A stretch of DNA of 36,992 nt from Saprospiraceae bacterium (GTDB lineage: Bacteria > Bacteroidota > Bacteroidia > Chitinophagales > Saprospiraceae): assembly GCA_020629965.1 (NCBI GenBank), contig JAHDCG010000032.1:16355-53346 (forward strand), in the 5' to 3' direction. Every line of letters starts with the position of its first letter. The stretch's first letter is position 1. The position numbers and the translations under genes were made by a program. Shown in pieces: positions 5,015 to 29,812 of this stretch. Under the pieces are notes generated by a model. It did not search any database, was not told the origin of the DNA, and worked only from the letters and a program-made list of their open reading frames with translations.

Positions 5015-5104
5015 TGTTGCCGGTTGACCGTTGTTGGTTGTCCGGCGGCTCTGTCAAAACTCTGCGTCTCAGCGTGCGCTTTTTCCATAGTCGCTTTCAG
5101 CAGT

Positions 5105-5160
5105 CTAACGTCTAATATCTAACGTCTAAAATCTAACATCTAAAATCTAACATCTAAAAT
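5105..5160. repeat. CTAAAAT/CTAACAT/CTAACGT heptamer array containing a stop codon
   Basis: Eight consecutive 7-bp units starting with CTA: CTAACGT, CTAATAT, CTAACGT, CTAAAAT, CTAACAT, CTAAAAT, CTAACAT, CTAAAAT. The CTA of the last unit (5154-5156) is the TAG stop of the gene on the minus strand, and the preceding TTT codon for the terminal Phe also falls in the unit. Confidence 0.9.
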
Positions 5161-7367
5161 CTCACTTTAGCCTGCACCTTCACCTCCGTCCGCGTCCTCC
5201 CGTCAATCTCCGTTCTGCCCGAGCCGAACTGTGCAAAGTCCGTATTTGCGTTGCGACCGGCGAGCCACGTTTGCGCTATTCTGCCTTCCAAAGTCACATT
5301 TCTGATGCCTTTAAAACGTAAATTCAGATAAGCGCGCGAGCCGCGATAAAAGTAGGCGGGTACCGAAAAAGTGTACAATAAATCATTTTCGTAGGCATAA
5401 ATGCGGCTGTTAAAATCGTCGGTATCGAAGAGTGCGTAACGTGCCGTCGCCGACCACGGACTGCCGACGGGCTTCCAGATGATGTCTTGATAGAGAACAA
5501 AACCGGTCGTCTCCAAGCCCGGCACATCGGAAGTAATGCTTTCGCCGTCCAAGAAATTGACGGAGACGAGCGGCTCGTCGAAGGCCGGATTGTCGATGCG
5601 GAAACGGCTGACCTCGAAGCGATTACGCAGCTCCAAAGACTTGCTGACTTTGTTGGAGATTTGCAGCCGCAGATTGGCGCGTTGCTGATTGTAAATCAGA
5701 TTTTTATTCAGCGAGCGCACATTGCGTGCCTTGTTTTCCAAGCGACCGCGCAGATAGACCGTCAGTTTTCGTTTGATGATGTAAGTGATTTGCGCGAAAG
5801 CCTCGTTGCCGTCGGAGGGGGCGTCGATGGTCGAGCGCAGCCACGGGTGCTTCCAGGCGTCGTAGTAGGCTTGGAATTTCCAATTGCGTGACGGTCTGAC
5901 TTCCAACCCGAGGTAAAGACCGCTTTCGTTTCTGCCGCCCATTGCCGTGGTTTCGCCGAAGGGGCGGGCGTTTAGTGAGTGAAAATCGCGGGGATAATGA
6001 CGGTGCAAAATCGCCAAATCGACGCGGCGGTCGAGACCGACGAGCAGACCGTTGAGCGTGGCGACGGAGCCGTTGTCACTATATGCTGTTTCGCCGAAAA
6101 AGTGAAAATTGCGCCATATATAGGCGTAATCAACGCTGAGATTGAGGAGGTTGCTGCTGTTGAATTCAAACTGATTATAAGTTCGCAAATTACGCCGGAA
6201 GTCGCTGCCGAATTGATGTCTGACCGCATTAAAAGCGATGTGTCCCGTGCCGAAGGACTGCTTCAAGCTGCCGCCGTAGGTCTGTACGCGGATGGCATTT
6301 TCGTCTTCGATTTCGGAGGCGAAGCGGTGCAAACCCGTGATTTGAAAAGAAGAAAAACCCGCCTCGGGGTCGGGGAAATCGATATTGAGCGAGTCAATAA
6401 AATCATCCCGCAGAATATTCGCATCGCGGCGACGGGTAGAATAAAAGGCGGTAAAATCCGTGTTTTCGGTCAAGCCCAAAGTCGCCGCCCCGCCCCGAAA
6501 AAAATCGAACTCATTTGCCGAACGCTGCGGTCGCAAAGCCCGCCCCGTGCGCCGAATATCCATCACCTCGACCGACTTTCCGTAGCCGAAACCCGCCTTG
6601 GCAATCAAGCCCTGACCCATGCCGATTTGGTAGTCGCCGATTGCCAAAGATTTGAGAAAAGCGGAATATTTATTCAGAAAAATATGTGCGGAATAGAAAT
6701 CAAAACCCTGCTTATTACTGCCCGTAAAAAACTCTTCGCCCTCGTCTTTTTCCGCCGTAAATCCCATACTCAAACGGTCTTCGTAGCGTCGCTGATAGCG
6801 GGTGTACAGACGAAAAGGCGAACCCAAAAACGGGTCTTCAAACTCACCTTCCTTATAGCCGCGCTGTTCTTCCAACAGCCGCCGATAACTCACAAAAAGC
6901 TCGTTGTCGCCCTCGGTCAGCATTTGCCCGAGGGGTACGCGGTAGTCGTCTAAATTACCGCTGACCGTGATGTAAGGCAAAATCGCGCGAATGGTTTGCA
7001 GGTCGAAACCCGGCACGGCTTGCAGTTCTTCTTTTGCCACCAAATCGCCGAATTGAGCACGGTAAGCGACTAAGCCGCTGATTTGCACGTCGTTAAGCAG
7101 AAAAAATTCTTCCAAATCCGCGACGGAGGCTTTATTGAGGTTGAGCGGATTGCGTTCGTAAATGCGAAATTTTTCCGCCAAATCGTTAAAAGCAAAATTA
7201 TCACCGTCGCCGCTGCCTTCTTCGACAATCGCCTCGATGAGTTGCTGCAAGGCTTCGGGTACTTCGTATTCGTCGGGATTTCTATCTTTTTGTGCCTGTA
7301 AATCAATGCTTTGCGTGAGCAAAAGCAAAGTTAAAAAGGGTAAAAAATATCGGTAAAAAACGGGCAT
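5154..7367 (-). CDS. Helix-hairpin-helix outer-membrane-type protein
   Basis: Exported protein of unknown function that joins a ComEA-like helix-hairpin-helix region to a probable outer-membrane barrel. Seen: signal peptide (about 1-25, ending LQAQ), helix-hairpin-helix repeats around residues 73-135 (NPLNLNKASVADLEEFF, then AVPGF), then about 600 residues of alternating polar and aromatic strands ending in Phe, as barrel proteins do. The architecture matches the Bacteroidota helix-hairpin-helix/ComEA family; a role in DNA binding or uptake is inference only. The last codons (for R and F) and the TAG stop overlap a heptamer array (5105-5160). Upstream lies an octamer run (7424-7461). No operon partner is visible. 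Confidence 0.8.
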   Translation of the reverse strand: MPVFYRYFLPFLTLLLLTQSIDLQAQKDRNPDEYEVPEALQQLIEAIVEEGSGDGDNFAFNDLAEKFRIYERNPLNLNKASVADLEEFFLLNDVQISGLVAYRAQFGDLVAKEELQAVPGFDLQTIRAILPYITVSGNLDDYRVPLGQMLTEGDNELFVSYRRLLEEQRGYKEGEFEDPFLGSPFRLYTRYQRRYEDRLSMGFTAEKDEGEEFFTGSNKQGFDFYSAHIFLNKYSAFLKSLAIGDYQIGMGQGLIAKAGFGYGKSVEVMDIRRTGRALRPQRSANEFDFFRGGAATLGLTENTDFTAFYSTRRRDANILRDDFIDSLNIDFPDPEAGFSSFQITGLHRFASEIEDENAIRVQTYGGSLKQSFGTGHIAFNAVRHQFGSDFRRNLRTYNQFEFNSSNLLNLSVDYAYIWRNFHFFGETAYSDNGSVATLNGLLVGLDRRVDLAILHRHYPRDFHSLNARPFGETTAMGGRNESGLYLGLEVRPSRNWKFQAYYDAWKHPWLRSTIDAPSDGNEAFAQITYIIKRKLTVYLRGRLENKARNVRSLNKNLIYNQQRANLRLQISNKVSKSLELRNRFEVSRFRIDNPAFDEPLVSVNFLDGESITSDVPGLETTGFVLYQDIIWKPVGSPWSATARYALFDTDDFNSRIYAYENDLLYTFSVPAYFYRGSRAYLNLRFKGIRNVTLEGRIAQTWLAGRNANTDFAQFGSGRTEIDGRTRTEVKVQAKVRF

Positions 7368-9022: not shown

Positions 9023-9027
9023 TATCC

Positions 9028-9190
9028 GCGACCTTCAGGTCGTCGTAAAATTAAAAAACCGTATTCGTGTCAACGAATGCGGTTTTTTAATGCGTAGCAG
9101 GTATTTTTTCAGACGACTTGAAAGTCGCAGTTACTACTTTTGTGGCAGATGTTTTTCTGACGACTTGAAAGTCGCAGTTACTATTTTTCA
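9028..9190. repeat. GCGACTTTCAAGTCGTC palindrome family, one inverted and two direct copies
   Basis: GCGACCTTCAGGTCGTC (9028-9044) is followed, in the other orientation, by GACGACTTGAAAGTCGC at 9112-9128 and 9159-9175. The last two are part of a 47-bp direct repeat that also includes AGTTACTA and a T-run. The first copy begins right after the glnII stop; the last ends just before the stop of the convergent gene. Confidence 0.75.
9053..9088 (+). terminator. Intrinsic terminator after glnII
   Basis: AAAAAACCGTATTCGT pairs with ACGAATGCGGTTTTTT around GTCA-like loop bases (one G-T pair). It is symmetric with A- and T-tracts and lies between convergent genes, so it is probably bidirectional. Confidence 0.88.
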
Positions 9191-9196
9191 ATCTTT

Positions 9197-15190: not shown

Positions 15191-15290
15191 CTGCAAGATA
15201 AAAGATAATCCGGAACGCGGCAACCTGCACGGTTTTTAAGCGATGCAAAAGTCATAAATCAAACAAACAGAGCAGTGAACTCGCCGCGCC

Positions 15291-15321
15291 CGTCAACCGT
15301 CCACCATCTACCGTCCACCGT
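15291..15321. repeat. CGTCAAC/CGTCCAC heptamer array directly before the yjjG ATG
   Basis: CGTCAAC, CGTCCAC, CATCTAC, CGTCCAC, CGT: 4.4 units in perfect 7-bp register, ending two bases before the ATG at 15324. It takes the whole ribosome-binding region. Confidence 0.88.
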
Positions 15322-16025: not shown

Positions 16026-16204
16026 CGCTGAACTCAAGAAAAAAAATACAAATTTAGATTTTAATTGATTTTAAGAAAAAAAAAGCGTCTGACGCCGGTC
16101 TCAAATGTAGAAATCTAAAACGGTGTCAGACAATTTACTCGCTTTAATCCGTCAAAGTTCTTCAAGTCTTCACTCCCTTTCTGAAAATGTTATCAGACAC
16201 CTCG
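16017..16204. repeat. GCGTCTGACGC and GTGTCAGACA palindromes between yjjG and the Ig-like gene
   Basis: GGCGTCTGACGCTG (16017-16030, containing the yjjG stop), AAAGCGTCTGACGCCGG (16082-16098), GGTGTCAGACA (16122-16132) and TATCAGACACC (16191-16201). The gap between the convergent genes is almost filled by these elements. They resemble the GTGTCGGATA set at 1135-1318. Confidence 0.7.
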
Positions 16205-16210
16205 GAGTCG

Positions 16211-18902: not shown

Positions 18903-19160
18903 TTTTTACGCTGATTGGTTAAGATTTTTAAGATTTTACGCTGATTTGCTTGTGTGATTATGATTTTTTTGAACCTGATTATTATGAATTCTATGATGAG
19001 TTATGACTGATGATTTTACTTCGTAAAATTATGTGACAATGATTTTTTGAACCTGATTATTATGATAATTGTGATTTGTTATGACTGTGATTTTACTTCG
19101 TAAAATTTTGTGACTATGATTCTTTTACGCTGATTGGTTAAGATTTTACGCTGACAAAAT
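18903..19160. repeat. Tandem TGATT/ACGCTGATTGG repeats upstream of the Ig-like gene
   Basis: Roughly 80-bp units repeat: TTTTTTGAACCTGATTATTATGA-like segments at about 18963 and 19041, ATTTTACTTCGTAAAATT segments at about 19011 and 19090, and TTTACGCTGATTGGTTAAGA flanking at 18907 and 19126. ATTTTACTTCGTAAAAT is a short palindrome. No gene is seen in this 380-bp stretch. Confidence 0.65.
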
Positions 19161-19242
19161 GTTGGCGTTGTTCCGTTTATTTTTCTAAAAAAAAACAAGA
19201 CTCAATGACAACCACGATGCTCGGCAAAAAAAGGAAGCCCCC

Positions 19243-19278
19243 CGTCAACCGTCAACCGACAACCGTCAACCGCCCCTA
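19243..19278. repeat. CGTCAAC heptamer array at the lipoprotein stop
   Basis: CGTCAAC, CGTCAAC, CGACAAC, CGTCAAC then CGCCCCTA: four units in 7-bp register running into the CTA (TAG on minus) at 19276. Confidence 0.85.
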
Positions 19279-23086: not shown

Positions 23087-23113
23087 GAGTTTTGTTGTTT
23101 TGGTTTGTGTCTT

Positions 23114-23272
23114 CAGCCCCCTAACCCCCGATTCGGGGGAACTTTCTCCGGGCTTGGGTTCACGGTAAATCTTGAGGCTTTTGGTGCTTTTTTCAAAGAG
23201 AATTCAAGTTTAAAACGGACTCAAATTAAATAACGACTTAACTCCCCCGCTCCGGGGGTCGGGGGGGCTTCC
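23114..23272. repeat. GC-rich inverted repeats between csgE and csgF
   Basis: CAGCCCCCTAACCCCCGATT (23116-23135) followed by CGGGGGAAC, and in opposite orientation CTCCCCCGCTCCGGGGGTCG (about 23241-23260) with GGGGGGCTT. Each contains its own stem of CCCCC and GGGGG, and the pair can also form one large hairpin around about 95 bp. This CCCCCTAACCCCC type is seen in other Bacteroidota (recall). The remaining bases in the 280-bp gap hold a CGACTGAAGTCGGGATTTCG element (23316-23335). Confidence 0.65.
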
Positions 23273-23344
23273 GTCAGCCGTGTTTAAATTCATAACGTCT
23301 CCGCCGTCACCTATCCACGACTGAAGTCGGGATTTCGCTATCGC

Positions 23345-23369
23345 TCAACCAATCACCACCTACCAACTA
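23345..23369. repeat. CACCACC/TACCAAC heptamer run at the csgE stop
   Basis: CAACCAAT, CACCACC, TACCAAC, TA: degenerate 7-bp units ending in the CTA (TAG on minus) at 23367-23369. On the coding strand this reads TAG, TTGGTAG, GTGGTGA, TTGGTTG, like the run after ndk. Confidence 0.5.
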
Positions 23370-23888
23370 ATAATATTTTCCCTCCAAGTACTCCGGCGCA
23401 TCTTCCTCCGCCAAAACATGTTTTCCGCTCGTCACATAGCCGTAAATATAATCCGCTAATGCCTTCGCTAAGTTCTCCAAACCTTCCGCGCTCGGCTGCA
23501 TCACGCGGGTAAAAACCTGCTTTTCATTCACCATAATGCCGATTTTGATATTGCGTCCGCGCCCTTCAAATTCATTGATGACGATGTTGTAATTCGGTAC
23601 GTTTTCCGGCTCCGCCCAATGCCGGGTGAAATACAGATAAAAGTCATATCCGCCGCGTGTGCGCGTGTCATGGACGACTAAACCGTTAATTTCAATCAAT
23701 TCGGTGGCAATGGGAACGCGCGGTTTGCTTACGTCTAAAAGCGGAAAAAGGGGGAGAGGTTTCTTCGTTTTTTCGGGTAGTTCTTTTTCTTCGTTTTGAG
23801 ATTTTTCGTAATGGATAATGTCTTGTTGTTGAGCAGATAGATTGGTTATGAGGATGAAAAATGCAAATAGGTTTAGTGTTTTTTTCAT
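23367..23888 (-). CDS. csgE: Curli assembly factor CsgE
   Basis: Periplasmic specificity factor that in E. coli caps CsgG and guides subunits to it. Seen: signal peptide (about 1-19), a linker rich in E, K and P (about 28-60), then the CsgE core (about 63-150): IEINGLVVHDTRTRGGYDFY, FTRHWAEPENVPNYNIVINE, FEGRGRNIKIGIMVNEKQVF and ENLAKALADYIYGYVTSGK. At 173 residues it is longer than E. coli CsgE (129), mainly because of the linker and a short acidic tail. A GATTTAC heptamer array is about 9 bp upstream of the ATG. Confidence 0.92.
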   Translation of the reverse strand: MKKTLNLFAFFILITNLSAQQQDIIHYEKSQNEEKELPEKTKKPLPLFPLLDVSKPRVPIATELIEINGLVVHDTRTRGGYDFYLYFTRHWAEPENVPNYNIVINEFEGRGRNIKIGIMVNEKQVFTRVMQPSAEGLENLAKALADYIYGYVTSGKHVLAEEDAPEYLEGKYY

Positions 23889-23897
23889 AGCGGAGTG

Positions 23898-23925
23898 ATT
23901 TACGATTTACGATGTACGATTTACG
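23898..23925. repeat. GATTTAC heptamer array upstream of the csgE start
   Basis: GATTTAC, GATTTAC, GATGTAC, GATTTAC in perfect 7-bp register (plus strand). It is inverted relative to the TCGTAAA-type array at 24087-24121, which follows the upstream csgB gene, so the two can pair across the csgB-csgE junction. Confidence 0.85.
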
Positions 23926-24086
23926 AGGGCGATAGTTGATTTTGCTTTAAATTGTACTTTTCAAAAATCAATTTTTTATGCTCTCATAAATCGTACTTCC
24001 TTATCGTAAATTCACGGTACAAACTAAGAAATTCAAAACAAAAAAACTCAAACCCAAAGAAATTAACATCCTCCGAGCAAGTGCTT

Positions 24087-24121
24087 TCGTACATCGTAAA
24101 TCGTAATTTGTACATCGTCAA
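24087..24121. repeat. TCGTACA/TCGTAAA heptamer array overlapping the csgB stop
   Basis: TCGTACA, TCGTAAA, TCGTAAT, TTGTACA, TCGTCAA: five units in register. The TCA of the last unit (24118-24120) is the TGA stop of the csgB-like gene. Confidence 0.85.
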
Positions 24122-24669
24122 TAGCTTTGTCTAATCATTATACTTTGCCCGTTGCCCTCCTGAATAATCTGAAACGATTGATTAACCGCGCCGTCGATGA
24201 CGTGGATAATTTCGTTGTCGTTACCGATTTGGATTAACTCGGTGTGCGAGTTTACCGACTCGGTCAGGCTTTGGGTGACGGTGTTTCTGTTACCTTCTTG
24301 TATGACCAAAGTCGTCAGACCCGTTCCGGAAATATCACCCGTGTAGGCGTTGCGATTTCCGTGCTGAATAACAAGACTTTGATTGTCGCCGCCCTCTTGC
24401 GTGAGCGAGATTTGGTTGCGACGACCGATTTGTTTTGCCAGAGCTGCATTGTTGCCCGGCCCGGTTTGAAATTGCATAACGTCCGCCTCGTTTTTATTGC
24501 CGTATTGTATCACCGCCGCCGCGTTTCTGCCTGCGTTCAGTTCCTGTTGTAACAGGCTGCTCGGGGCTAAAAGAGCGTCTTCGGGATGCTGTTGTGCAAA
24601 AATCGAGGAAGAAAAGAAGAAAACAAAGTAAGTCAACAGGCAAATGACAAAGGAATAATTTATTTTCAT
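24118..24669 (-). CDS. csgB: CsgB-like minor curlin (nucleator candidate)
   Basis: Secreted curlin-type protein, probably the minor subunit that nucleates fibres. Seen: signal peptide (about 1-25, MKINYSF...SSIFAQQ), then curlin-type units with the pattern xVIQxGNxN: AAAVIQYGNKN, NAALAKQIGRRN, NQSLVIQHGNRN, TTLVIQEGNRN, TELIQIGNDN and FQIIQEGNGQ. The units are fewer and less regular than in CsgA, and the C-terminal end (SIMIRQSY) is strand-like. Start chosen at the ATG at 24669, which opens onto the signal peptide; an upstream frame to 24723 adds 18 unlikely residues. The name rests on size, position and lower regularity; it could also be a second CsgA-like subunit. Confidence 0.8.
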   Translation of the reverse strand: MKINYSFVICLLTYFVFFFSSSIFAQQHPEDALLAPSSLLQQELNAGRNAAAVIQYGNKNEADVMQFQTGPGNNAALAKQIGRRNQISLTQEGGDNQSLVIQHGNRNAYTGDISGTGLTTLVIQEGNRNTVTQSLTESVNSHTELIQIGNDNEIIHVIDGAVNQSFQIIQEGNGQSIMIRQSY

Positions 24670-24737
24670 ATCCTTGCATTTAGCTGCCTGTAACCTCTGC
24701 GCCCGAACTTTTTCGGGTATCAATCACAAGCTGTATT

Positions 24738-24875
24738 AAAAGAAAAATCGGTTCCGATTTTTCTTTTGTTTATTCGTTTATCTGTTTATTTGTTTAGTAC
24801 ACAGTTGCAATCTAAACGCATAAACAAATAAACGCATAAATATATAAACATATAAACAAAAATCGGAACGATTTT
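24738..24875. repeat. Hairpins and paired octamer arrays in the csgA-csgB gap
   Basis: Two short palindromes, AAAAGAAAAATCGG/CCGATTTTTCTTTT (24738-24767) and AAAATCG GAA CGATTTT (24859-24875, directly after the csgA stop), bracket a GTTTA octamer run (24766-24797) and its inverse TAAAC run (24812-24858). The two runs can pair into one imperfect long stem around a 14-base loop. The csgA-proximal palindrome is followed on the minus strand by T-rich sequence, so it may be a weak terminator or stability element. Confidence 0.75.
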
Positions 24876-24877
24876 AC

Positions 24878-27599: not shown

Positions 27600-27784
27600 C
27601 GTTATTGATTTGGTGAAAAGATTGGCAATAATAGGAACTAAATTTGAAACGTCACCGGCCTTTAGCTTTTCTCGTTTTGATTTCGTATTTCGTTAACCGA
27701 AATAGGCGAAAATGAGGAACTTTCGGGGTTTCAATCGGTTATCATCCGGCACTCACGTACCGGGCTGAAGTGCCTCATGCCGTT

Positions 27785-28001
27785 GGCATTTACCGGGAGG
27801 GCGACATAAAACTTTTGGTAATTCAAAAAAGTCAATGCGCCTACGCCGGCACCCTCGTACATCGTACTTCGTACATCGTACTTCGTACATCGTAACGGCA
27901 TTTCCGGGGAGGGCGACAAAAAATTTTCGGTAAATCACAAAAGTCAACGCACCTACGCCGGCGCCCTCGTAAATCGTAAATCGTAAATCGTACATCGCCA
28001 C
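27785..28001. repeat. 112-bp tandem duplication with heptamer arrays, running to the transporter ATG
   Basis: Copy 1 (27785-27896) and copy 2 (27897-28001) share GGCATTT, CCGGG, AGGGCGACA, AAAGTCAA and CCTACGCCGGC followed by CCCTCG. Copy 1 ends in six units TCGTACA/TCGTACT (27855-27896), copy 2 in TCGTAAA x3, TCGTACA, TCGCCAC (27967-28001), whose last unit ends on the base before the ATG at 28002. The spacer has diverged by only a few bases, but the array spelling differs between copies. Confidence 0.88.
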
Positions 28002-29633
28002 ATGATTGAATCTTTTCAACAAAATCCTTTACTCCTTCTTTTTGTCGTCATCGCCCTCGGCTATTGGGTCGGCAGCATCCGGATTCGCGGAAGCAAGCTC
28101 GGCGTGGCAGCGGTACTATTTGTGGGTTTGGGTTTCGGTGCACTCAGTCCCGACCTCAAGGTGCCGGAGATTATTATCTTTCTCGGCTTGTCAATTTTTG
28201 TTTACACGGTGGGTCTCAGCAGCGGGCCGGCATTTTTCGATACGTTTAAAAAGCGCGGATTTAAAGATGCGGGTTTTATTGCGGCGATGTTGGTGGTGTC
28301 GAGTTTGATTGCGGTGGGTATGCACTACCTTTTCGACTTTGAAGCGGCGACTACGGCGGGGCTTTTTGCCGGCTCTTCGACGAATACGCCCGCACTTGCC
28401 GCCCTGCTCGACGTCATTCAAAAAACGGCTTCTTCACAGGAACTGACCGAGATGTCGCAGCGAGCGGTGGTCGGTTATTCTTTGTCTTATCCGATGGGAG
28501 TTTTGGGGGTAATGGGCGGTATATTTTTGATGCAAAAACTTCTGAAAATCGACTATCGGGCGGAGGAAGCGGAACTCGCCGGTACTTACTCTATCGGCGA
28601 AAAATTAGGCAGTCGCACAGTGCGGATTACCAACCCGAAAATTATCGGTAAGACGCTGCGCGAAATCAAAAAAGAGTACAATCCCAACCTCGTTTTCGGG
28701 CGCATTCGGCACGATGACGCGACGACGCTTTGCACCTACGACACGGTTTTTCGGGAAGGCGACGAAGTGGTACTAATCGGCAATAAATTAGCCCTCGACA
28801 AGGGCACGGAATTGGTCGGACAGGCTGCCGCCAAACAAATAACTTACGACCGCTCGGTCTTCGATGTGCGGCGTATTTTTGTTTCTAATCCCAACCTTGC
28901 GGGCGAGACGATTGCTTCGCTGAATTTGCCCGAAAAATTTGAAATCCTCATCACCCGCGTACAGCGCGGCGATATGGATATTTTGGCGGACGGCGACACG
29001 GTTTTGGAGTTGGGCGACCGCGTTTTAATTGTCGCCAAGCGGGAGGATTTGAAGGGTTTGTACAAGATATTCGGCAACAGTCTGGAGTCTTTGAGTCAAA
29101 TAAATCTGCTGTCTTTCGGTCTCGGAATGGCGTTGGGTTTGCTGCTCGGCATGGTGACATTCGAGCTGCCCGGCGGCTTTGATTTTAACCTCGGTTTTGC
29201 CGGCGGGCCGCTGATTGTGGCTTTGATTTTAGGAAAATTGCGACGTACCGGCCCGATAGTCTGGACGCCCGCTTTCACCGCTAATCTGACACTGCGCCAA
29301 ATCGGCTTAACCTTCCTGCTCGCGGGCATCGGCATTCGCTCGGGGCGCACTTTTTTGGAAACCGTACAGCAGGGGGAGGGCGGCTACGTCTTCATCGCGG
29401 CGGCGATTATTGCCGTTTCGACCACGGTAATTACGCTGCTGACGGGTCTGAAACTAATGCGCATTCCGTTCAGTTTTTTGACGGGAATGGTCGGTAGTCA
29501 GCCCGCTGTTTTGGACTACGCTTTGGAGCAGGCGAAAAATAAATTTCCGATGATTGGTTATACGATGATGCTGCCGCTGATTTTAATCGGGAAAATACTG
29601 GTGACGCAGGTTTTGTTTGCGTTACTTTTGTGA
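28002..29633 (+). CDS. AspT/YidE-type transporter with two TrkA-C domains
   Basis: Inner-membrane exchanger of the aspartate-alanine antiporter-like family (YidE/YbjL duplication domain); substrate unknown. Seen: about five membrane segments in residues 5-170, including LFAGSSTNTPALAALLD, then two cytoplasmic RCK-C (TrkA-C) domains (about 200-275 and 285-365: SRTVRITNPKIIGKTLREIK, EGDEVVLIGNK and SVFDVRRIFVSN, LGDRVLIVAKRE), then about five more membrane segments including ILGKLRRTGPIVWTP and SFLTGMVGSQPAVLDYALEQ. The length of 543 residues is typical. Start at the ATG at 28002, which follows directly on a heptamer array with no other ribosome-binding signal. Confidence 0.9.
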   Translation: MIESFQQNPLLLLFVVIALGYWVGSIRIRGSKLGVAAVLFVGLGFGALSPDLKVPEIIIFLGLSIFVYTVGLSSGPAFFDTFKKRGFKDAGFIAAMLVVSSLIAVGMHYLFDFEAATTAGLFAGSSTNTPALAALLDVIQKTASSQELTEMSQRAVVGYSLSYPMGVLGVMGGIFLMQKLLKIDYRAEEAELAGTYSIGEKLGSRTVRITNPKIIGKTLREIKKEYNPNLVFGRIRHDDATTLCTYDTVFREGDEVVLIGNKLALDKGTELVGQAAAKQITYDRSVFDVRRIFVSNPNLAGETIASLNLPEKFEILITRVQRGDMDILADGDTVLELGDRVLIVAKREDLKGLYKIFGNSLESLSQINLLSFGLGMALGLLLGMVTFELPGGFDFNLGFAGGPLIVALILGKLRRTGPIVWTPAFTANLTLRQIGLTFLLAGIGIRSGRTFLETVQQGEGGYVFIAAAIIAVSTTVITLLTGLKLMRIPFSFLTGMVGSQPAVLDYALEQAKNKFPMIGYTMMLPLILIGKILVTQVLFALLL

Positions 29634-29746: not shown

Positions 29747-29812
29747 ACCGTCAACCGTCAACCGTCAACCGTCAACCGTCACTGGCAACCGTCAACCGGC
29801 AACCGTCAACTA
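29747..29812. repeat. ACCGTCA heptamer array at the thrS stop
   Basis: Nine units from 29747: ACCGTCA x4, ACCGTC (one base short), ACTGGCA, ACCGTCA, ACCGGCA, ACCGTCA, then ACTAACT, which includes the CTA (TAG on minus) at 29810-29812. Mostly exact 7-bp register. Confidence 0.92.

Follow-up and report, generated by a model that had tools for sequence, protein, structure and literature searches.

A tandemly duplicated leader and heptamer array before a transporter gene, and outward-facing heptamer arrays at gene edges, in a Saprospiraceae genome

Tandem duplication in front of a transporter gene

We analysed 36,992 bp from a Saprospiraceae bacterium (GCA_020629965.1, contig JAHDCG010000032.1, positions 16,355 to 53,346), and this whole stretch is referred to as the window. 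Its source genome, G000, comprises 6.52 Mb in 291 contigs; G001 is the only relative of the same genus among the genomes searched. In the window, a transporter gene is preceded by two copies of a spacer and a heptamer array, and by a dispersed repeat. Rfam returned no match within the window at gathering thresholds.

27746..27791, plus strand: dispersed 46-bp REP-like repeat, just upstream of copy 1 and extending at its 3' end into the beginning of that copy
27785..27854, plus strand: copy 1 spacer (leader), a leader-family copy in the profile search
27855..27894, plus strand: copy 1 heptamer array, TCGTA six times, tails CA CT CA CT CA
27897..27966, plus strand: copy 2 spacer (leader), matching copy 1 at 60/70 positions
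27967..27997, plus strand: copy 2 heptamer array, TCGTA four times, ending 4 bp before the ATG
28002..29633, plus strand: transporter gene, 543 aa, Asp-Al_Ex permease regions with TrkA_C domains

TRF detects a period of 112 over 27785-27997 (85% matches, score 321), and the match of the two 70-bp spacers at 60 of 70 positions far exceeds the maximum of 35 reached in 20,000 shuffles, which rejects a chance repeat. The 112-bp tandem duplication named in a preliminary description of this DNA is therefore real, and an assembly artefact is unlikely as its source because the two spacers differ by 14%. That description carried the exact register up to the base before the ATG; the register stops at 27997, and the last four bases before the ATG at 28002 (27998-28001) do not match copy 1 and lie outside it.

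The two arrays share the core TCGTA, with tails CA, CT, CA, CT, CA in array 1 and AA, AA, AA, CA in array 2. Across four aligned units there are no differences at 20 core positions and five at the eight tail positions (p=0.0006); the spellings described earlier, TCGTACA/TCGTACT in copy 1 and mainly TCGTAAA in copy 2, are thus correct and amount to five substitutions. Visible array change is confined to the two free letters of TCGTANN. The proposal that the arrays turn over faster than their flanks is not borne out at this duplication, where mismatches between copies number 5/28 in the array and 10/70 in the spacer (Fisher p=0.76), and the core does not differ significantly from the spacer in divergence (p=0.11). 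The transporter ortholog in G001, 84% identical over residues 1-543, has a TTTACAACTTTAAAACTTTACAACTT-type sequence at its start in place of the TCGTA module.

A leader family joined to TCGTA arrays

BLAST searches with the spacer matched only the two window copies well (next match E=0.005), and the spacer as a high-copy repeat detectable by BLAST was rejected; a family emerged only with a profile search. Alignment of 12 sequences preceding TCGTA arrays revealed a conserved leader with a consensus close to GGTAAnTCACAAAAGTCAATGCACnTACCACCnnCGCCC. A profile of the leader sequence alone, with 150 of 6097 candidates scored in G000, found at least 13 copies at E<=3.9e-6, the next lying at 0.064; 12 of the 13 are the training set of the profile and one, on C104, is the sole new copy. 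Among 150 of 5046 candidates scored in G001 there was nothing comparable (best E 0.44). All 13 matches are directly joined to a TCGTA array, mostly at a junction of the form ..CGCCC/TCGTA, which argues against the suggestion that arrays were inserted separately, with the qualification that 12 of these copies trained the profile. The contrary picture of a fixed mobile spacer with the same arrays everywhere holds in part: the leader is dispersed and carries TCGTA at every copy, but array tails and lengths vary between copies.

By eye, about 8 of the 13 leaders are preceded by the whole or part of the 46-bp REP-like repeat. This repeat has at least 25 or so matches, at approximately query positions 47-92 and with 82-100% identity (40 of 271 candidates scored). 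The predicted DNA fold of 27743-27800 around it is no better than shuffles (z -0.78).

We examined 16 same-strand neighbouring TCGTA array pairs and compared their flanks with 200 shuffles each. Flank similarity was above all 200 shuffles in 8 of the 16: the window pair (identity 0.86), three pairs on C65 (0.86-0.96, period 113-114, where a leader differing from that of the window is repeated four times), and the pairs on C223 (0.84, period 153), C90 (0.87, period 105), C70 (0.89, period 40) and, barely above its shuffles, G001 L115 (0.61 vs 0.58). Among the loci of the 13-copy leader family, tandem copies occur on C77 (112 bp), C90 (105 bp) and C223 (153 bp). The flanks of the other eight pairs (L066, L067, L070 and L171; L119, L121, L134 and L136 in G001) are no more alike than shuffles, and some neighbouring arrays are therefore not module duplications; in L066, L067 and L070 the array copies are identical and separated by a linker of 13-14 bp, and their flanks are unlike. 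Leader-plus-array modules are thus duplicated at the window and at a few other loci.

Two further leader-like sequences were seen. The leader before TCGTA arrays in G001 (L114, L115, L130, L135 and others) is different and close to AAGTYARARCRG, and in L130 the AAGTYARARCRG-like leader forms hairpin arms. A CGACTGAAGTCGGGATTTCGCTACGCTCAA-like element lies by array-like sequence at window 23087-23366, L166 ~2520 and L172 ~1255-1300, possibly another leader family.

Placement and orientation of arrays at gene edges

Heptamer arrays with at least five spellings occur within this one genome, and the window itself holds the following besides those at the duplication.

5104..5162, plus strand: TCTAACA/TCTAAAA array; it overlaps the stop of gene 5154-7367 on the minus strand
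15290..15321, plus strand: CCGTCCA array, 2 bp before an ATG
19242..19272, plus strand: CCGTCAA array, with a stop codon 3 bp away
23901..23926, minus strand: TCGTA array preceding the ATG of gene 23367-23888 (minus strand); it forms the left arm of a pair facing outward
24087..24122, plus strand: TCGTA array, right arm of that pair, running into a minus-strand gene stop at 24118
24765..24860, no strand assigned: two ATAAACAA-type arrays in inverted arrangement; in G001 this intergenic region has an inverted TCTAACA-type pair
29747..29810, plus strand: ACCGTCA array directly abutting the stop codon (29810) of a minus-strand gene for a class II aminoacyl-tRNA synthetase with TGS, tRNA_SAD and anticodon domains

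Counting positions with three successive TCGTANN units gives 240+280 for G000 and 67+88 for G001, against none for the reversed pattern in both. In some relatives the reversed control equals TCGTANN in frequency (5+9 vs 19+6 in G013), so that the enrichment is special to this genus among the 40 genomes searched, 11 of which had any match. Contigs C1, C18, C48, C62, C64, C66, C104, C204 and C223 begin or end inside TCGTA arrays; the arrays therefore probably break the assembly and are undercounted.

We defined an array as outward when its G-poor, C-rich strand reads into the nearer ORF, with C/G ties oriented by A>T; genes are ORF calls of at least 90-100 codons, so that start positions are approximate. 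In regions selected because searches had shown repeats in them, and after dropping arrays inside predicted ORFs (4 in G000, 2 in G001), the outward end lies at a stop for 32/50 arrays in G000 and 32/48 in G001 (median distances 5 and 7 bp) and at a start for 18 and 16 (medians 20.5 and 10 bp). Stops lie within 18 bp in 26/32 and 29/32 cases and starts within 30 bp in 11/18 and 14/16, in G000 and G001 respectively; 4 further arrays in G000 and 2 in G001 have no outward neighbour in the stretch. TCGTA arrays at most 600 bp apart form 20 outward pairs, 4 same-strand pairs and no inward pair.

The same rule appears in samples of both genomes. The G000 sample (the window and 20 stretches, 220,699 bp) has 7 as its commonest TRF period (63/176 rows), and its merged heptamer arrays, of several families, number 63 between genes and 5 in ORFs; in the G001 sample (20 stretches, 183,159 bp) period 7 accounts for 17/84 rows, with 22 arrays intergenic and 5 in ORFs, and the ORF-internal arrays were dropped from both. 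Among G000 arrays with both neighbours known, 37 of 49 lie within 25 bp of a coding edge where 14.0 are expected, and 36 of these 37 face outward (stops 21/22, starts 15/15); in G001 12 of 19 lie near an edge where 6.0 are expected, and all 12 face outward, giving 48/49 overall. The window was itself chosen by the finding and the G001 stretches L206-L208 overlie listed matches to a TCTAAC array; without them, 25/26 near-edge arrays in G000 and 4/4 in G001 (29/30 together) remain outward, and the near-edge counts are 26 against 10.1 expected and 4 against 2.5, so that the excess in G001 alone is weak. Arrays occupy a minority of edges, 37 near-edge arrays per 277 edges in G000 and 12 per 249 in G001.

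The outward rule could reflect base composition, as array-free edges have C in excess over G (G000 starts 68:27 and stops 60:32; G001 starts 76:26 and stops 61:33); array-bearing stop edges in G001, in 40-nt windows, stand at 7:2. Against a baseline of 0.745, the outward counts have p=1e-5 (48/49) and p=0.0016 (29/30), and this mild C-richness does not account for the rule. In two other genera of the family 7/7 near-edge arrays face outward, the near-edge counts being 3 against 1.4 expected in one and 4 against 3.3 in the other; the latter genome, G018, thus has hardly any excess, and its stretch C37, which holds a listed TCGTA match, yields no near-edge array. At 24 transporter loci of other relatives we found 6 intergenic heptamer arrays and nothing that supports the edge rule: among the 4 with both neighbours known, none lies within 25 bp of an edge and one reads to the nearer edge.

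Orthologous edges in G000 and G001

We compared 32 reciprocal pairs of at least 55% identity between the two genomes, judging array families by eye. Three stop edges bear arrays of different families: ACCACCA-type in one and TCGTA in the other at L171/L140, ACCACCA-type and a CCGTCCA-like run at window 4465-4884/L200, and a further difference at L154/L197. The inverted ATAAACAA-type pair in the intergenic region 24670-24877 likewise has an inverted TCTAACA-type pair as its counterpart in G001. TCGTA is present on both sides at L152/L132 and L165/L134, both from regions chosen for TCGTA arrays, and an array is present in G000 only at the stops at 29810, 19276 and 5154 and at the start of L163. 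Beside these arrays both C-termini align within one residue at L152/L132, L165/L134, L171/L140, L163/L208 and window 4465/L200; the exception is L154/L197, with 6 and 9 C-terminal residues unaligned.

In about ten genes the array sits after the stop and before a terminator-like hairpin, the order that an insertion would leave, and the hairpin starts at a median of 75.5 nt with an array against 43 nt without (14 and 59 genes, p=0.02). By eye, in some genes (L114, L116, L162) the hairpin lies between stop and array. Replacement of terminators by arrays was rejected as an explanation, with terminator-like sites at 6/27 array edges and 25/163 others in the samples, no clear difference; nor was there one at TCGTA-chosen loci (8/51 vs 25/103).

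Origin of the modules

The reading that we favour, with a probability of roughly 0.7, is that the feature is a tandem duplication of one leader-plus-array module and that such modules spread by joint copying, with no function needed. The module is a leader of 45-70 bp and a short heptamer array at a fixed junction, here placed a few bases from the transporter start. We infer that leader and array are copied together, perhaps by REP/MITE-like transposition or by array-primed template switching, and that modules persist only where coding sequence is unharmed. Local duplication would have placed one more module beside the gene, on the array side; thereafter both copies may have drifted at one pace, the changes seen falling in the two free letters. 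The arrays are probably carried along and may incidentally affect the 5' leader of the mRNA. Insertion and selection alone do not explain the distance of 2-7 bp from stops or the strict orientation. A Y1 transposase is a doubtful candidate for the mover: one Y1_Tnp gene was found in G000 (C153:5917), with no link to the repeats seen, and by eye the surrounding 2 kb holds no clear array-bounded element and one partial ..CGCCCTCGTAAATCG, upstream of the neighbouring gene.

An unlikely alternative, which the preliminary description raised, is concerted turnover, in which each array is kept uniform by slippage or unequal exchange, its spelling thereby changing jointly and faster than its flanks. 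Consistent with this, tail identity within arrays in G000 is 0.462 against 0.345 shuffled, above the highest of 1000 shuffles (0.431); the L071 array contains a 14-bp higher-order repeat; and the duplicated flanks on C90 and C223 (0.87 and 0.84) carry arrays of unlike tail and length. Homogenisation is nevertheless modest in G000 and absent in G001 (0.254 vs 0.278 shuffled), array and spacer are equally diverged at the window duplication, and two equal-length comparisons on C65 give array identities of 0.95 against 0.86-0.93 for flanks. The general idea of spelling turnover survives, as tails differ sharply between the genomes (CA makes up 121/272 tails in G000 and 8/198 in G001) and some orthologous edges change family, but the faster-than-flank pace does not. 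Both edges of one intergenic region bear the same spelling in 6/11 cases against 0.32 in G000 and 2/3 against 0.21 in G001, which is suggestive only. Dispersal of blocks of fixed unit order gains no evidence from the word CT-AA-CC, which occurs in 8 arrays of G001: when unit order is shuffled inside each array the mean maximum is 7.7.

About equally improbable is that the arrays are functional UTR elements, acting in translation initiation or on transcript ends or stability, whose position is kept by selection. Their precise positions at starts and stops would fit, and MacGregor 2015 (PMC4679880) raises control of translation as a role for TAACTGA arrays ahead of start codons. Viewed from the intergenic region, however, starts and stops have arrays of one orientation, and the transcript therefore sees opposite strands at the two; moreover, several orthologous edges have no array or another spelling, and only the minority of edges given above (37/277 and 12/249) bear arrays.

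Placement related to G-quadruplexes, an idea discussed for GGGAATC and GGGGA(C/T)T arrays, is highly improbable: the edge rule published for them (PMC4692102) is the same in three genomes and 19/49 near-edge arrays here have at least four GG runs, but the 30/49 without four GG runs obey the rule in 29/30 cases, none of the 49 has four GGG runs and the TCGTANN core unit contains no GG, which largely refutes quadruplexes as a general cause. Equally far-fetched is telomerase-like healing, in which broken ends at gene edges would receive heptamers. Strand polarity at starts and stops would suit it, since the G-richer strand runs 5' to 3' outward from the gene like that of a telomere, as would the adjacency of the free letters within the unit; but conserved leaders lie behind the arrays, and a search for PF00078 reverse transcriptases found three in G001 and none in G000, by which an enzyme of this family was rejected as the source.

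We offer tentatively, as a possibility that we think somewhat doubtful, that arrays of interchangeable spelling are laid down by a direction-specific process that halts precisely where selected sequence begins; place and orientation would be set by the gene edge rather than by the sequence of the repeat, spelling would be exchanged over time while the architecture is kept, and the arrays would then seed leader copying and module duplications. If true, a single undescribed DNA process, unrelated to quadruplexes, would lie behind the edge rule in Bacteroidota, Xanthomonas and cyanobacteria alike.

Relation to known repeats

The duplication by itself is ordinary repeat biology, and the surrounding pattern matters more. 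The nearest parallels are the intergenic heptamer arrays of Xanthomonas (GGGAATC) and Nostoc/Anabaena (GGGGA(C/T)T) in Rehm et al. 2015 (PMC4692102), for which the edge-and-strand rule was published, in Xanthomonas and Nostoc, with quadruplexes in mind. Like the arrays described here, these are heptamers, mostly intergenic, with the G-rich strand pointing away from the ORF at starts and stops; they are reported within 0-50 bp of the ORF, some overlapping the stop, and vary strongly in length and sequence between relatives, as in G000 and G001. Unlike those G-rich, quadruplex-forming units, the present arrays have at least five spellings, a conserved leader and tandem leader-plus-array duplication. 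They thus share the seven-base intergenic tandem unit and outward orientation of the broad type and lack its G-quadruplex capacity. Here the position-and-orientation rule also holds for arrays without G-runs, with several spellings within one genome, and at some differently spelled orthologous edges; since it holds across spellings, the rule is separated from the unit sequence and its cause becomes testable. A literature search whose coverage excluded most subscription journals found no paper on the edge-array pattern in Saprospiraceae.

The TAACTGA direct repeats that MacGregor 2015 (PMC4679880) describes from Beggiatoaceae, Cyanobacteria and some Bacteroidetes are likewise arrays of heptamers, lying a few bases ahead of start codons, and one set in Flexibacter litoralis directly follows a stop in reverse orientation. 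They are described there as having a single spelling and lying mainly before starts, whereas the host arrays have several spellings and occur at starts and stops; the same text cites an earlier survey in which heptanucleotides are the most abundant class in most genomes. The unit TAACTGA itself was not found among the host arrays, whose units are TCGTANN, CCGTCMA, TCTAAMA and others.

The STRR sequences of filamentous cyanobacteria were reportedly described by Jackman and Mulligan in 1995. STRR are also seven-base tandem units between genes, able to form hairpins, but they belong to another phylum, and the edge-and-orientation rule is absent from the available part of their description (PMC2670836). 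The 46-bp element resembles REP/RAYT and REPIN sequences (PMC3733652) in being a short dispersed extragenic repeat of similar length and copy number; no hairpin with a GTAG/CGTC tag and no tie to the single Y1_Tnp gene were seen for it.

The window holds further repeats. A 77-78 bp tandem repeat, TGTGACTATGATTTTTT...GAACCTGATTATTATG, lies at 18953-19135, with similar sequences in L179 ~4185 and L065 ~5030. At 9023-9196, between converging genes, are direct copies of CGACTTGAAAGTCGCAGTTACTA, a second REP-like family by a stop codon, and short palindromic sequences (TATCCGACAC..., GCGTCTGACGC...) adjoin stop codons at 1129-1321 and 16026-16210.
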